31,082 bases of DNA from a virus. This document shows positions 4,504 through 31,023 of the stretch, one piece after another (position 1 is the stretch's first letter; every line of letters begins with the position of its first letter). The notes under the pieces were generated by a model that saw only the letters and a program-made list of their open reading frames with translations, was not told where the DNA came from and did not search any database. The stretch spans positions 1-31,082 of the IMG/VR virus record IMGVR_UViG_3300029787_000215; one strand, given 5' to 3'. A program made the translations under genes and the position numbers.

Positions 4504-5307
4504 ATGGCAGAAGAAAAGAAAATAAGACCGATAATAGCTTCCTCGCCTAGTGAGGCAGCTTTACAGACTATTGATGAATTGAATGCTAAAGATATTTCAC
4601 TTGAGGAATTTTTAGGTTCTGATTTAGCTAAAACTATTGATGAACCTAAAGTTCCTTTAAGTGAAAAATCTAGCGAAGTTAATCAGTCTGAAAACTTAGA
4701 AGAAATTGTTAAACACTTATCAGATAAACAAGAAGTGCCCGGGAGTTCATTAGCAAGAAGTCCAGACAATGCTTTTCCTTGGGAAAGCCCTCCAACATTT
4801 GCTAGTCCTAGAGAAGCTCAAGATGCCATGTTTGGCATGTTATCTACTCCCGAAGTAACTGAAAATATTTTAAAAGGTTTAAGTATGGGAATGCCTGTTA
4901 CAGATTTAACAAGTATTTTAGTATTTAAAGGTTTTATTGATGGAGCTTATAATCCAGATGTAGCTTTACTTATTAGTGAGCCAGTAGCATTTTTTATTAT
5001 GGCTTTAGGAGAAAAAGCTAATATTGATTACAAAATAGAAAGCGATGACTCAGACTTAGATGACTTAGAAAGAACTTCAATAGACGATAGAGCTTTAGAA
5101 GAACTTGAAAAAGCTGGTGGCATTGGACAGATTCAAAAAGCTATAAAAGAAAAAGAAGTATCAAAACGTAATATTCCAGCAGATATTGTTAAAGAAGTAG
5201 AACAACGAGTAACACCAAGTTTACTAGCACCTTCTACAGATACGACAGTTGAAGCAGAACCAGAACAAACAGAAGATAAAACAGAAAGTTTATTAAGTAG
5301 GACATAA
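4504..5307 (+). CDS. Unknown late protein, probably virion-associated
   Basis: A 267-residue acidic protein I cannot assign. The N-terminal third is charged and probably disordered. A central segment (about 100-175) holds hydrophobic helices (LSMGMPVTDLTSILVFKGFI, ALLISEPVAFFIMALGEKA) that could pack as a small helical domain or touch a membrane. The tail is Glu/Thr-rich. It starts MAEEK, like the next gene (MAEDK), and lies between two structural-type genes with gaps of only four and two bases, so it is co-transcribed and probably packaged or needed for assembly. There is no clear ribosome binding site, which suggests coupling to the gene upstream. Confidence 0.65.
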   Translation: MAEEKKIRPIIASSPSEAALQTIDELNAKDISLEEFLGSDLAKTIDEPKVPLSEKSSEVNQSENLEEIVKHLSDKQEVPGSSLARSPDNAFPWESPPTFASPREAQDAMFGMLSTPEVTENILKGLSMGMPVTDLTSILVFKGFIDGAYNPDVALLISEPVAFFIMALGEKANIDYKIESDDSDLDDLERTSIDDRALEELEKAGGIGQIQKAIKEKEVSKRNIPADIVKEVEQRVTPSLLAPSTDTTVEAEPEQTEDKTESLLSRT

Positions 5308-18576: not shown

Positions 18577-19428
18577 CTAGTCTGTACAAAAACAATCTAA
18601 ACTTTCATCACTTTCAAATAAATCAAACTGAGATTGTTCTTCGCTTTTTTTTAATAAATCTACTACAGGTATATCAAATCTAAATGTTTTACCAGTTTTG
18701 TTTTCTTGCTCTATCCACCAATTTGATAATTCCGGTCTTGATTTCATTATATCCATAGTTTGCTTTTTACCTTTAAGGAAACACATATCACAATTTCCTA
18801 ATATAGCATGTCCATTTATAGCAACTAATTTTAAATCAAAATTAGATTTATCCCAAAAATCTTTTATAGTTTCTTTTGTAACTTTTTCATTATAAAGAGG
18901 TGTAAATTTATCTTGAGCATTATTTTTACTTTTAATTCTATGAACTCTGTGAGGCTCATCATATCTTAAACCTAACAATTGGTCAGGATTTTTTAATCCT
19001 TTAAGTCTTTCAAACCATGTAATAGCTCGTTGTTTTAATAGATATGTACAAAACCTATTAGTAGCATTAGGTAATTTATTGTAGTGATTAATAACTACTT
19101 CAAAAGGTTCTCCATTTCTACTACAATTATTATAGTCAGTTTCTTTATATTTAAATATCCATTTCCTATCGTTTTCTGTTGGTCCTTTTCCATCATCTAT
19201 AATGTGAGATAACTCCATCCAATAAACTTTACAATCCCAATGTTCTTCACAATCTTTTATAAAGTCTAAAGTTTGTGGCATTTCTTTTCCAGTATTAGCA
19301 AAAACAGGATATACATAATCCGGTAAAGTACCTCCATGTGCTTCAATAACTTTGTATAAAAGATAAGCAGAAGTCCGACCCCCGGAAAAAGAAATTATTG
19401 TAGGTTCTTTTAAAAAATAATTATTCAT
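18577..19428 (-). CDS. PAPS-reductase-like PP-loop protein
   Basis: A 283-residue member of the adenine nucleotide alpha-hydrolase superfamily related to PAPS/APS reductase and DndC. It has the PP-loop SFSGGRTSAYLLY (14-25), then the NTGKEMPQTLDFI strand-helix, NRFCTYLLK (C127) and LGLRYDEPHRVHR. GNCDMCFLKGK gives C213/C216, 85 residues after C127, which echoes the CC-X80-CXXC [4Fe-4S] site of APS reductases with one cysteine fewer. A further CFC pair ends the protein (C279, C281). Phage members rarely assimilate sulphate. Placement between nuclease/DUF3310 genes and nrdA suggests nucleic-acid or nucleotide chemistry, but the substrate is unknown. Confidence 0.85.
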   Translation of the reverse strand: MNNYFLKEPTIISFSGGRTSAYLLYKVIEAHGGTLPDYVYPVFANTGKEMPQTLDFIKDCEEHWDCKVYWMELSHIIDDGKGPTENDRKWIFKYKETDYNNCSRNGEPFEVVINHYNKLPNATNRFCTYLLKQRAITWFERLKGLKNPDQLLGLRYDEPHRVHRIKSKNNAQDKFTPLYNEKVTKETIKDFWDKSNFDLKLVAINGHAILGNCDMCFLKGKKQTMDIMKSRPELSNWWIEQENKTGKTFRFDIPVVDLLKKSEEQSQFDLFESDESLDCFCTD

Positions 19429-21311: not shown

Positions 21312-23028
21312 TCCAGTTTTCTCCTACTTTGTATTCTCCAGTTAGTGGACAACGTAAGTTAAAATGCTTACCAGCTCTCTCTATCGCTTCTACTCCAGTA
21401 AGACCTGTAAATTCAGCAATGCTTTCTTTCACTTGCATCTGCCATTCATCATGAATGTTAGCAACAAACTTAGCATCTAATGTATTTAATTGTATATGAG
21501 TATGAAAAATACACATAGCTTTTTTCATAGCTATTGCACCTCCACCTTGTAATAAAGTATTTAAAGCAGCGTGTTCGTGCCTAACAAATATTTTTCTACC
21601 ATCTAGACCTTTTAAGAATCCTCTTCTCGAAGCTTCTCGTACTCTTGTCGTAAGGTTTTCAAGTGCAGGGAGGTTGGTAAGAAAACGCTTTCTAAGGACT
21701 GTACCTGCTTCTCTGTTTTCACCAACCACTTTTCCAAGTTTTTCGTCTCCTGCTCCGTATATAAGTGCATAGATAAAAGTCTTTGCCTTATCTCTTGATT
21801 CAAGTCCTGCAAGTTCTTGATTAGTCGTGTGTATGTCTCCATTAATAATCTCGTCTATGTAATTTGAATCATCCATGTAATGAGCTAGTAATCTTAATTC
21901 TAAACCACTAGCATCAATACCTAATAATTTATAACCTTCTGGTACTGTCCAACAAGCTCTGCAATCTTCGCCATAAGGACTATACACTCCCGGAACTTGT
22001 GCTAAATTAGGATTTCTATGAGTCATTCTACCAGTAATAGTACCATTAGGTATAACTCGACCATGCACTCGTTCACCTTGTAGTTCATCTATCCATGAAG
22101 ATATTTGAGCAATACGTTTCTGCAATAATAAAAACTCGGCAATGAGCCGAGCTTCGTTTATGTGAGTTATCTTTTTTAATGTACCTTCATCAACTATTGG
22201 TTGACCAGTCGGAGTAAATCGTTCTGGTTTCCAACCAAAGTCTATTAAGTATTCTCCTATTTGTTTACGTGAACCAAGATTAAATTCTTGTAATTCTTTT
22301 CTCATAAAAGGTTTACTATCATTAATATCAGCTCGTTGAGCATACTCTAAATTAGTTAAGCCAGATTTAGAAAGTCTGCCATCTTTTTTTAATTTAGGTA
22401 CAACTTCTTTTACATCAACCCACTTAGGTTTAAATGTTCTTTGAACTTCATCCTCAACTTCTGTCATACGAGTTTTTAATTTAGCTAAAAGTTTCATAGC
22501 TCTTTCAACATCAAATAAAAATCCTGTCTGTTCTTGCTCAAGCATAATCCTGGCAACTTCAGTTTCTAATTCTAAGCTCTCAGGGTCAAAGTTCTTACCT
22601 TCATTTATTAAAGCAAAATAAACTTTTTCATTTAACAATACATCTTGAGTACAATACTCCAACATTTCTGGAGTGTACTCATCAAAATCATCTGGTTGTT
22701 CTTGCTTGTGAAAGTTAATTCTATAGCCCCAAGTTTTTAAACTGTGTCCGTTCTCTCGGACTGGTTGATATAATCTAGACATGACTAGAGTATCAATGAC
22801 CTCTGAAGTAAAGGTAGCTCCATGAAGTTTTTCTAGAACTGGCATATCATAACCTAAGATATTATGTCCTATTAGAACATCAGCTTCTTCTAACAATTTA
22901 ATTCCTGCTGCTAGTTTATCAGGACCAAATTGATATACCTTCTGCTGTTCAATATCTTTAGCTACAATACACCAGACTTTACTAGGAGTTAAACCATCTG
23001 CTTCAATATCAAAAATCAAGTTCTTCAT
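21298..23028 (-). CDS. Family A (T7-like) DNA polymerase
   Basis: A 576-residue replicative polymerase. The 3'-5' proofreading exonuclease has FDIEADGL (D7, E9), GHNILGYDMPVL (N56, D61) and YCTQDVLLN (Y125, D129). Polymerase motif A is LLGIDASGLELR (D372), motif B RDKAKTFIYALIYG (R412, K416, Y420, Y424), motif C NIHDEW (H526, D527, E528). Y420 is the residue equivalent to E. coli Pol I F762. It is shorter than T7 gp5 (704), so the thioredoxin-binding loop is probably absent. ATG 23028 is preferred over TTG 23034; both lie in the end of the primase-helicase gene, with GAGGAG upstream. Confidence 0.95.
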   Translation of the reverse strand: MKNLIFDIEADGLTPSKVWCIVAKDIEQQKVYQFGPDKLAAGIKLLEEADVLIGHNILGYDMPVLEKLHGATFTSEVIDTLVMSRLYQPVRENGHSLKTWGYRINFHKQEQPDDFDEYTPEMLEYCTQDVLLNEKVYFALINEGKNFDPESLELETEVARIMLEQEQTGFLFDVERAMKLLAKLKTRMTEVEDEVQRTFKPKWVDVKEVVPKLKKDGRLSKSGLTNLEYAQRADINDSKPFMRKELQEFNLGSRKQIGEYLIDFGWKPERFTPTGQPIVDEGTLKKITHINEARLIAEFLLLQKRIAQISSWIDELQGERVHGRVIPNGTITGRMTHRNPNLAQVPGVYSPYGEDCRACWTVPEGYKLLGIDASGLELRLLAHYMDDSNYIDEIINGDIHTTNQELAGLESRDKAKTFIYALIYGAGDEKLGKVVGENREAGTVLRKRFLTNLPALENLTTRVREASRRGFLKGLDGRKIFVRHEHAALNTLLQGGGAIAMKKAMCIFHTHIQLNTLDAKFVANIHDEWQMQVKESIAEFTGLTGVEAIERAGKHFNLRCPLTGEYKVGENWSETH

Positions 23029-24673: not shown

Positions 24674-24682
24674 TCTATCTCC

Positions 24683-24739
24683 AAAAAAAAAGCTAGGTCA
24701 GGAATAAAAATTAGGAGAGTAAAAAAACCTAACCCAGCT
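24683..24739 (-). terminator. Intrinsic terminator before the replication operon
   Basis: In - strand RNA, AGCTGGGTTAGG (24739-24728) pairs with CCTGACCTAGCT (24702-24691) as a 12-bp stem using two G-U pairs. The loop is 25 bases, long for a terminator and itself T-rich. The stem is followed at once by a run of nine T residues (24691-24683). It lies after the stop at 24752 and just before the primase-helicase ribosome binding site, so it would limit early transcription into replication genes. Confidence 0.7.
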
Positions 24740-24751
24740 CCGTGTTCTTAA

Positions 24752-25030
24752 TTAATCAGATTCTTTATCGACCTCCTCATCGACAATTGTTTTAGTTTCT
24801 GATTCCAATAAAGTCGTACCAGACTTATCGCTATTAACTATCTCTACAATTTTATTTGAAAAGAAATTAATAGCTGCTTGAGTTTCCTCAAGGTCTAAAG
24901 TCTGATTGACTTTCTTTTGATTAAGTCGTTGTAATCTACCAAAGACTCCTTGCCCTTCTTCGGGTAAGTCTTCGACTTGAATATCAACTCCATCAATCGT
25001 GACATAGGGTTTTTGTTCTACAGTTTCCAT
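24752..25030 (-). CDS. Unknown acidic protein next to ssb
   Basis: A 92-residue acidic protein. The N-terminal part has YVTIDGVDIQVEDLPEEG, then LQRLNQKKVNQTLDLEETQ, a phrase order seen in small DUF6447-like phage proteins; this match is from memory and weak. The C-terminus is a Glu/Asp-rich tail. Its ATG overlaps the ssb stop (TAATG), so the two are co-translated. It is the last gene before the terminator. Confidence 0.65.
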   Translation of the reverse strand: METVEQKPYVTIDGVDIQVEDLPEEGQGVFGRLQRLNQKKVNQTLDLEETQAAINFFSNKIVEIVNSDKSGTTLLESETKTIVDEEVDKESD

Positions 25031-25446
25031 TAGAACTCTTCCCCGTCTGATAGTAATTCATCACCATCAGCACCTTTGTACTCTACTAAGTCAGTTACTT
25101 GCACTGCTTGAAGGTCAAGTCCAATATATGGACCGAACTTTCCTTCACCACTGTACTCATTGTACTGAACTCTTACTTTAGAGCCATTACCTACAGCAAC
25201 ATTTATTTCTTGCTTGTCGCTATCAAGTAATCTAGGAGCAGACCTAACCATTCCGTTAGGACCATTCACTTTCCTTTTGATAACTAAAGCAGGACCTTCG
25301 TCATGTTGCTTTACCTTGTGACCCCTTGATGCAAAGTCATTTGCTATGTCTTCCTCAACAATTAAGTCGAGTGTATACATAGGTTCAAACCTTGTATTAG
25401 GGGTTGTGATACTTGCCCATTTGGCAACACCATTTAATATAGCCAT
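25030..25446 (-). CDS. Single-stranded DNA-binding protein, T7 gp2.5-like
   Basis: A 138-residue OB-fold-type SSB that covers single-stranded DNA at the fork and aids recombination. Family-like phrases: GVAKWASITTPNTRFEPMYT at the start, ALVIKRKVNGPNG, NGSKVRVQYNEYSG, PYIGLDLQAVQV. The C-terminus is acidic and ends in Phe (DGDELLSDGEEF), like the gp2.5 tail that contacts polymerase and helicase. It is much shorter than T7 gp2.5 (232 residues). AGGAGG lies shortly before its ATG. Position ahead of the primase-helicase fits. Confidence 0.8.
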   Translation of the reverse strand: MAILNGVAKWASITTPNTRFEPMYTLDLIVEEDIANDFASRGHKVKQHDEGPALVIKRKVNGPNGMVRSAPRLLDSDKQEINVAVGNGSKVRVQYNEYSGEGKFGPYIGLDLQAVQVTDLVEYKGADGDELLSDGEEF

Positions 25447-29816: not shown

Positions 29817-30056
29817 TTATGCCTCCAATTCTGTTATATAATCTTTAATTTTTTGTAAGTTTTTATCTTTATGTCGTTCTAGTTCTAATTTACTTTCAAG
29901 ATTTAAAGCACGAACTACATGAACTAAATCCATGTCAAGTATATTTACCCAATCGCCTTTACTTCTTGACCAATATTTAAACTCATCTGTCATATCGCAA
30001 GGTATTTTACTTTCTTCAATAACAGATTGTATTTCTAATAATTTTTTAACTTTCAT
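29817..30056 (-). CDS. First gene of the early block, small unknown protein
   Basis: A 79-residue helical protein (KVKKLLEIQSVIEESKIPC, LDMDLVHVVRALNLESKLE, KIKDYITELEA). The ATG follows TTGGAGGTG by a few bases. It is preceded by a structured leader and an extended -10 promoter, so it heads the early operon. No family recognised. Confidence 0.66.
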   Translation of the reverse strand: MKVKKLLEIQSVIEESKIPCDMTDEFKYWSRSKGDWVNILDMDLVHVVRALNLESKLELERHKDKNLQKIKDYITELEA

Positions 30057-30093
30057 AATACACCTCCAATAATGTATATAATTTATTAAATGC

Positions 30094-30153
30094 GAAACCT
30101 AATAAAGTTAATTTAAGTATGAGGTCACACTCTTCGGCTCTTCATTAGGTCTC
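30094..30153 (-). promoter_or_regulatory. 14-bp leader stem, possible RNase III site
   Basis: In - strand RNA, GAGACCTAATGAAG (30153-30140) pairs with CTTTATTAGGTTTC (30107-30094) over 14 continuous base pairs, two of them G-U. On the + strand these two would be A-C mismatches, so the structure belongs to the - transcript. It lies in the leader of the gene starting at 30056, does not cover that gene's ribosome binding site and has no T-run after it. This argues for processing, stability or regulation and not termination. Confidence 0.6.
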
Positions 30154-30162
30154 GACTTTTAT

Positions 30163-30171
30163 ATTATAACA
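30163..30171 (-). promoter_or_regulatory. Extended -10 promoter for the early block
   Basis: TGTTATAAT is a perfect extended -10. There is no good -35. It would start transcription about 100 bases before ATG 30056, just ahead of the 14-bp leader stem. Confidence 0.5.
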
Positions 30172-30307
30172 GCCGAAATTCTTAATGGCGTTGTTCATAT
30201 AGAGTAGCGTAGTCTTTAGTTAAAAAGTCAAACTCTCTAAACAGGATTTATACTTTAATAGCTATCCTCTTTTCCGCTAACCATTAAATTCTATTTAAAT
30301 TCTTTAT

Positions 30308-30368
30308 TCTCTCAGTAGTTAGACAAAGAAAACTAAACAGAAACTTTATCTAACTACCTTCGGAGAGA
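30308..30368 (-). promoter_or_regulatory. Strong hairpin in the gene-free region
   Basis: In - strand RNA, GTAGTTAGATAAAG (30357-30344) pairs with CTTTGTCTAACTAC (30328-30315), 14 bp with one U-G, closed by a 15-base loop. Below it an asymmetric internal loop (5 and 1 bases) leads to TCTCTC/GAGAGA (30368-30363 with 30313-30308). The U-G would be a C-A mismatch on the + strand. Confidence 0.6.
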
Positions 30369-30432
30369 TTTCGCAAACTTTATCCCAACCGCCCAGAAGA
30401 AGTCAAGATGTCTTAAAGGTATTAATGTTTCT

Positions 30433-30455
30433 TATAGTTTCTTTAAAGAACTATA
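30433..30455 (-). promoter_or_regulatory. 7-bp hairpin in the gene-free region
   Basis: TATAGTT and AACTATA flank CTTTAAAG with one extra base, giving a near-perfect palindrome. It could fold in either strand's RNA or be a protein-binding dyad. Confidence 0.45.
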
Positions 30456-30519
30456 AAACTCTTTAACCTTTTCTTTACTACCTTTATAAAAACTTTAAGT
30501 AGCCCTCAATAGCCCTAAA

Positions 30520-30549
30520 AGTATAAACCGAAGCCGAAGCAAAGGTCAA
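30520..30549 (-). promoter_or_regulatory. Sigma70-like promoter TTGACC-18-TATACT
   Basis: The -35 TTGACC (30549-30544) and -10 TATACT (30525-30520) each match consensus at five of six positions, with an 18-base spacer. It lies right after the stop of the upstream gene and points into the gene-free structured region. Confidence 0.55.
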
Positions 30550-30563
30550 GTAGTGTTTAAATA

Positions 30564-30779
30564 TTAATAGCGTGTCCATGTGGAAAAGATATAAATAGTT
30601 CCCATGTCCATACTATAATTGTTTAGATAATTATATTCAGTATTTAACATAGCCCTCAATCCACCTTTACGATACAGTTTAGCTCTAGTATTTTTATAAG
30701 AAATATCCTCAACAAATGAATATTTTAATGCTCTAATATATTCTTCTGCTTGTTGTTTATTGGTAAATTTTCTAATCAT
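30564..30779 (-). CDS. Rightmost early gene, unknown 71-residue protein
   Basis: A 71-residue basic, Tyr-rich protein (MIRKFTNKQQAEEYIRALKY, KNTRAKLYRKGGLRAM, ending YIFSTWTRY). ATG 30779 has GAGGG five bases before it and is preferred over the in-frame TTG at 30791. It is probably the first gene to be expressed, and is separated from the early block by about 500 bp. No family recognised; host-takeover genes often sit here in T7-like phages. Confidence 0.62.
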   Translation of the reverse strand: MIRKFTNKQQAEEYIRALKYSFVEDISYKNTRAKLYRKGGLRAMLNTEYNYLNNYSMDMGTIYIFSTWTRY

Positions 30780-30829
30780 AATAGCCCTCAATAGTTATAT
30801 ATATTAATATGTTCGTTAAACTCCCTCCA

Positions 30830-30898: not shown

Positions 30899-30914
30899 AT
30901 GCTCAATAATAAAA

Positions 30915-31023
30915 AAGGTACAATTTGAAAAAGGTACAGCAAAAAAATTCAAAGGTACACAAGATAAAAAGGTACAATGATTAAAAGGTACATAAAAATT
31001 TTAAGGTACATTGAAAAGGTACA
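30915..31023. repeat. Seven AAGGTACA (TGTACCTT) short direct repeats
   Basis: Exact 8-mers start at 30915, 30931, 30952, 30969, 30985, 31003 and 31016, with spacings of 13-21 bases (several 16-18), in one orientation, in an A-rich background. Possible roles are terminal-repeat flanking arrays like the short repeats next to T7's genome ends, origin iterons, or operator sites for the first early promoter. Confidence 0.8.

Follow-up and report, generated by a model that had tools for sequence, protein, structure and literature searches.

The gene-free locus and its setting

The window, that is, the whole stretch of DNA analysed here (virus record IMGVR_UViG_3300029787_000215, 31,082 bases), encodes on its minus strand a primase-helicase, a DNA polymerase, a gp2.5-like SSB, an endonuclease, and a ribonucleotide reductase. 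Its closest isolates by primase, at approximately 47% identity, are the Pelagibacter phages HTVC115P, 104P, and 103P, so that the host probably belongs to SAR11. A phosphoadenosine phosphosulfate reductase gene (18577-19428) lies beside the ribonucleotide reductase genes; these are auxiliary metabolic genes. The locus under study is located on the minus strand, 5' of the first member of a run of small genes (Table 1). Near the right end of the window (30907-31023), several direct-repeat copies of AAAAGGTACA look like protein-binding iterons, and similar GGTAC-rich repeats occur in the related loci L002, L033, and L011. Another sequence, TAGCCCTCAATAG (CTATTGAGGGCTA on the minus strand), is found three times (30500-30512, 30650-30662, and 30782-30794), and for a conserved small ORF, beginning at about 30780, one copy supplies the Shine-Dalgarno context.

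Table 1. Features of the leader and of associated genes, in window positions.
Feature	Position	Strand	Remarks
Promoter-like TTGACC-18-TATACT	30520..30549	-	reads into leader
Leader, first part	30369..30519	-	~73-75% identical in L033/L011; probably structured, within computed leader fold
Module A, long hairpin	30308..30368	-	14-bp stem plus outer stem; nearly identical copy in L002
Module B, three-way junction with H-type pseudoknot	30181..30288	-	covariation
Module B, P1	30280-30288 with 30181-30189	-	
Module B, pseudoknot helix a	30276-30279 with 30259-30262	-	
Module B, helix b	30264-30268 with 30243-30247	-	
Module B, A-rich L3	30248-30258	-	
Module B, P3 cassette	30200-30239	-	
Module B, J3/1	30190-30199	-	conserved, UAUGAACAAC
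Module C, proposed H-type pseudoknot	30093..30177	-	five homologues
A/U-rich linker with GGAGG Shine-Dalgarno	30057..30092	-	
First gene 3' of leader	29817..30056	-	79 aa, no PHROG match
gp2.5-like SSB gene	25030-25446	-	
Covarying hairpin, unlike B	24674..24751	-	immediately 5' of the primase-helicase gene of the window; place held by B in other phages

An earlier note on this DNA had described about 500 bp without a credible ORF, two long stems that would work only as minus-strand RNA, and a promoter of the locus' own. Consistently, no ORF of at least 40 aa was detected on either strand within 30073-30563 (~490 bp), and a search for a conserved reading frame found none running through the region. 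The two stems likewise hold as minus-strand RNA structures, because on the plus strand A-C would stand in place of their G-U pairs. Folding of the whole leader gives -110.3 kcal/mol on the minus strand (z -3.5; 0 of 100 shuffles) and -74.4 kcal/mol on the plus strand (z -1.45). In a coarse z scan of the window, the positions covering both stems were among the lowest values; the stem at 30093-30154 reaches -26.6 kcal/mol (z -5.6) and module A -25.8 kcal/mol (z -4.6), each on the minus strand. The same type of scan (20 shuffles) also gave unusually low values in two coding stretches, 4561-4680 (z -4.8 to -6.6) and 21841-21960 (z -5.6). Of the promoter, the sequence itself stands: it is present on the minus strand, and both hexamers are nearly kept in L033 and L011, where the spacer has diverged. 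As a consensus match, however, it is no better than chance, with 10 sites found in the scan versus 8.0 expected.

Covarying structure of the modules

The strongest element of the locus, module B, is located between the two stems flagged earlier. From 5' to 3' it consists of P1, helix a, a loop that often reads GGAAAAG, helix b, the partner of a, the A-rich loop UUAAAGUAUAA, the partner of b, the hairpin P3, which is variable, then UAUGAACAAC, and the arm that closes P1. As helices a and b cross each other, they form an H-type pseudoknot inside a three-way junction, with a adjoining P1. Because B is a pseudoknot, folding energy does not reveal it (local z -0.8), and single-sequence folding energy was discarded as an uninformative test of this module.

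The evidence for B comes from 73 distinct copies in IMG/VR, many of which are close relatives, so that the following counts do not represent independent events. At two positions of helix a the pair types are UA51/AU11/GC11 and AU47/UA26, and in helix b AU40/UA33; no non-pair occurs in either helix in any of the 73 copies. Positions 3-8 of P1 covary as well, and an almost invariant U-G pair (69/73) is found at its inner end. Altogether 93.9% of the tested pairs form, compared to 25-45% in slid controls, in a parse where a few copies are one base out of register in helix a and P1. In an alignment of 16 copies made with the P3 loop cut out, both sides have changed in 14 of the 22 pairs (2-5 in slid controls), and the covariation score is 0.449 (0.03-0.09 in slid controls). 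Without selection for pairing, it would be hard to explain that, across different P1 backgrounds, helix a has three pair types at one position and two at a second one. Compensatory changes in B exceed those in slid and shuffled controls, as expected of a structured RNA under selection.

A covariance model of B matches the window at 30177-30292 with 91.4 bits, the window copy being part of the training set. It also matches weakly B' and Q, both of which were outside the training set. Together with mini-B, a small form in L108 that precedes a primase gene, B' and Q appear to have the same helix order with different letters and are probable relatives of B. Since a generic topology scan also produces chance matches (8 in reversed sequence), these three forms were judged on shared core letters and position.

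Module C may fold into a second H-type pseudoknot. Its stem S1 pairs UUCGGCU with AGCCGAA (30171-30177 with 30133-30139), and S2 pairs CGAGACCUAAUGA with UUAUUAGGUUUCG (30142-30154 with 30093-30105). Among the five homologues, A-U to G-C changes occur in S2 and one G-U in S1; these changes are few but compensatory, which makes a thin but consistent case for the proposed fold. In module A, the 14-bp stem (30315-30328/30344-30357) is extended by an outer CUCUC/GAGAG, but the only homologue (L002) is near-identical and A therefore contributes no covariation evidence. Taken together, the check for covariation suggested by the earlier note found compensatory changes in abundance in B and a smaller case in the pseudoknot at 30093-30177.

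Searches against Rfam 15 (4227 families) at gathering thresholds gave no match in the window, and none was obtained in 11 related loci or in the L025 array. With E values up to 10, the 1.5 kb around the locus produced weak matches only, far below threshold. Blastn searches of GenBank phages with the leader, B, M (a second module family, see below), and two arrays found no match either. In bacterial and archaeal species genomes, searched with an M1-type pattern only, five matches were obtained, in no case together with the rest of M. The abundant compensatory changes, the missing reading frame, and the lack of Rfam matches support a selected, uncatalogued phage RNA structure. None of the known ribozyme and riboswitch folds considered (hammerhead, pistol, twister, HDV, THF, purine) appeared to fit the modules. 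No description of these RNAs was found in the openly accessible papers searched.

Exchange of modules and cassettes

Comparison with related loci, gathered via a nearby protein and via the primase, revealed that the leaders are mosaics. Of the window's leader, L033 and L011 share the first 150 bases and module C, and other structured-looking elements stand in for A and B. In L002, the leader contains A and C, and B is found 2.4 kb away before another gene. Within B, P3 is a slot for which approximately 20 interchangeable cassettes were sorted. A single 39-base P3 cassette occurs on nine P1 haplotypes, four types of a, and both types of b. Cassettes also stand free (L025, L297, L313, L146, and L320) and, in L265 and L234, sit in the P3 slot of family M, whose core is unrelated. 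Whole modules are exchanged, too, as clean insertions between near-identical flanks with the shared end sequence AACAACGCC. For example, L007 differs from the near-identical L005, L006, and L004 by two extra modules, one of which is B.

Family M is built on a P1, P2, and P4 of its own, which show compensatory variants (P4: CACG/CGUG, CAUG/CAUG, and CGCA/UGCG; P2: CCUU/AAGG and CUUAC/GUAAG). Because some rows of its alignment have the 3' arm of P1 displaced by one position, this alignment was excluded from the pair counts and the variants were tabulated instead, with a few P1 rows visibly misassigned. The family comprises P1, UGUAAAAUCC...GGUUAAGGAUAAAA, a hairpin containing AAUGAGNNCUAAACC, and a P3 slot in which cassettes are nested, some of them K-turn-like (GUCUGA...GUGACGA); it was observed in L012, L025, L026, L031, L035, L104, L106, and at least ~60 other loci. 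Further recurrent elements were noted. One module, CAGAGTGGCAGTAGTTAATG..., is closed by an AU-rich stem (L007:7190-7282, L033, L073, and L190). The small motif UAUAAAUCCUAGAUUAAAUUCGGGG is nested in M and stands alone elsewhere (L106, L160, L189, L197, L218, and others). A possible H-type pseudoknot with apparently compensatory variants, GGAGGAGUUGGUAGUCAUCUCC...AAAACUACCAC, forms a separate module (L011:7338, L025, L031, L050, and L073).

The modules are recurrent in IMG/VR, where 105 stretches match one B pattern and M is at least as frequent as the matches listed, yet they are absent from Rfam and the GenBank phages searched. As a tentative proposal, marine phages may possess a large stock of uncatalogued structured RNA domains and shuffle them as protein domains are shuffled: the same cassettes would fit different cores (B, M, and others) or travel alone, and whole modules would enter and leave before early genes. 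If true, this would amount to a combinatorial layer of RNA regulation with several new folds, possibly including aptamer or catalytic activity. We know of no earlier case where numerous RNA folds without relation to one another change places as whole units, sit inside each other's helices, and move between phage genes. Taken separately, the motifs are new classes of a known kind; what we do not know to have been described is that RNA domains pass between cores and between genes. GOLLD and ROOL RNAs are also associated with phages. They are large, ornate structured RNAs without a reading frame (PMC12286853), whereas the elements described here are small, separate, shuffling modules instead of one large conserved RNA and have no Rfam match. 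The manA and wcaG motifs (Rfam RF01745 and RF01761) are phage-associated structured RNAs from marine metagenomes that probably are cis-regulatory (PMC2864571). They share this type of source with our modules, which differ in sequence, lack an Rfam match, and precede diverse genes.

Placement before genes and possible functions

Most B and M copies tested (71/78) do not overlap any ORF of at least 45 aa. This, the freely varying cassette lengths, and the gene-free leader led us to reject a coding origin. Where a downstream ORF exists, 70 of 76 B and M modules lie on its strand. The gene directly 3' of B encodes the primase-helicase in 35/72 copies, 31 of which end 14-24 nt before its ATG. Among the 68 B and M modules with a recognisable Shine-Dalgarno-led start, 24 end 13-33 nt before it; in many other cases more noncoding sequence comes first, and some modules are arranged in chains hundreds of bases from any gene. 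Some modules precede genes without a known role in replication. The site before the primase gene is occupied in other phages by B, M, mini-B, or a plain covarying hairpin. Such different folds at one site just 5' of the Shine-Dalgarno sequence suggest a shared, position-dependent role. Promoters were predicted at the 5' end of 8/72 modules versus 6/72 at one control offset, and with such weak enrichment we rejected the view that every module caps the 5' terminus of its transcript.

The earlier note had also considered a new phage noncoding RNA. A selected, uncatalogued structure is indeed present, but it is a chain of separate modules and no single RNA. The common strand of modules and next ORFs and the frequent short distance to the start codon point to an mRNA leader or an element between cistrons rather than to a free-standing RNA gene. 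We lean towards the view that minus-strand positions 30060-30520 are the 5' leader of an early phage transcript, whose modules would act in cis on the downstream message. Such a leader would carry hairpin A, the three-way-junction pseudoknot B, and pseudoknot C in series, followed by the A/U-rich linker, a strong Shine-Dalgarno sequence, and the small early gene. A compact fold that ends just 5' of the ribosome-binding site, in combination with the linker, could set translation or decay of the message, and the modules probably control or protect messages of early and DNA-replication genes. B would then be one of several families, M among them, in a wider collection of mobile and interchangeable RNA modules from uncultivated marine phages. 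The sequences show the covarying structure, the placement, the swapping of folds before one gene, and the shuffling of cassettes; transcription of the leader, its action in cis, and any protein partner, for which the phage gp2.5-like SSB is a candidate, are inferred.

The nearest described architecture is the gene 32 operator of T4 and RB69, where a pseudoknot precedes a less structured region that contains UUAAA elements and the ribosome-binding site, and cooperative binding of gp32 starts at the pseudoknot (PMC535899). Common features are a pseudoknot in a phage leader, located 5' of a less structured region and the Shine-Dalgarno sequence, and, if B acts as proposed, control of a replication gene. 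Agreement with this arrangement is seen in the topology of B and C, in the low GC content of the linkers (0.21 versus 0.27 in the background), and, in the window, in the order of module C, UUUAAUAAAUUAUAU, and GGAGG. Unlike the T4 operator, B is larger, with a three-way junction and an exchangeable P3, and it precedes many genes, is mobile, and can be replaced by other folds. The likeness concerns how these RNAs may work, not membership in that class, and SSB binding is putative here. On the available sequences, these RNAs would best be read as a new class of leader RNAs that are mobile and modular, act in cis, and resemble the gene 32 operator in architecture. The modules offer directly testable RNA targets, often before the primase-helicase gene, in phages that probably infect abundant ocean bacteria.

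Alternatively, the modules could be riboswitch-like aptamers, in which the invariant core would recognise a small molecule and regulate the gene that follows. The preQ1-I and SAM-II riboswitches are H-type pseudoknots with an A-rich third loop near the ribosome-binding site. B shares this pseudoknot type and the A-rich L3, has ~40 invariant core positions, many of them unpaired, and is positioned just 5' of the Shine-Dalgarno sequence, but it matches neither family and the Shine-Dalgarno sequence lies outside B. Aptamers of this kind seem unlikely given the diversity of the downstream genes, the swapping of quite different folds before the same gene, and the lack of a common terminator or Shine-Dalgarno-sequestering arm; no recurrent expression platform was seen among the modules.

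Trans-acting or decoy RNAs, released from stable leaders and titrating host factors, would explain the chains of several modules after promoter-like sites, the differing module content of near-identical phages, and the autonomous cassettes. We regard this as similarly unlikely, because the modules share the strand of the next start codon and keep a tight spacing to it, and the minus strand of the window contains no terminator-like site after the modules.

Processing of the type found in T7 early mRNA had likewise been proposed in the earlier note. Cleavage of a polycistronic transcript by self-cleaving ribozymes or at RNase III sites would fit the intercistronic location of stems in a phage early operon, and module A is a long, near-perfect stem of the length of an RNase III site. 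Against this stand the absence of Rfam ribozyme matches (in the window, the 1.5-kb locus, the 11 related loci, and the L025 array) and the B helices of 4-8 bp, which are short for RNase III. Unlike the T7 sites, the modules contain pseudoknots and short helices, B and C do not resemble RNase III sites, and conservation is strongest in the single-stranded core instead of a long duplex, so that a processing function appears improbable.

Finally, the clean insertions between near-identical flanks and the common end sequence would also be expected of a signal in the DNA, such as hot spots of recombination or repeats bound by proteins, maintained so that modules can be exchanged, but this is very improbable, since crossing helices with compensatory changes and the almost invariant U-G pair of P1 fit RNA and the orientation of the modules follows the genes.
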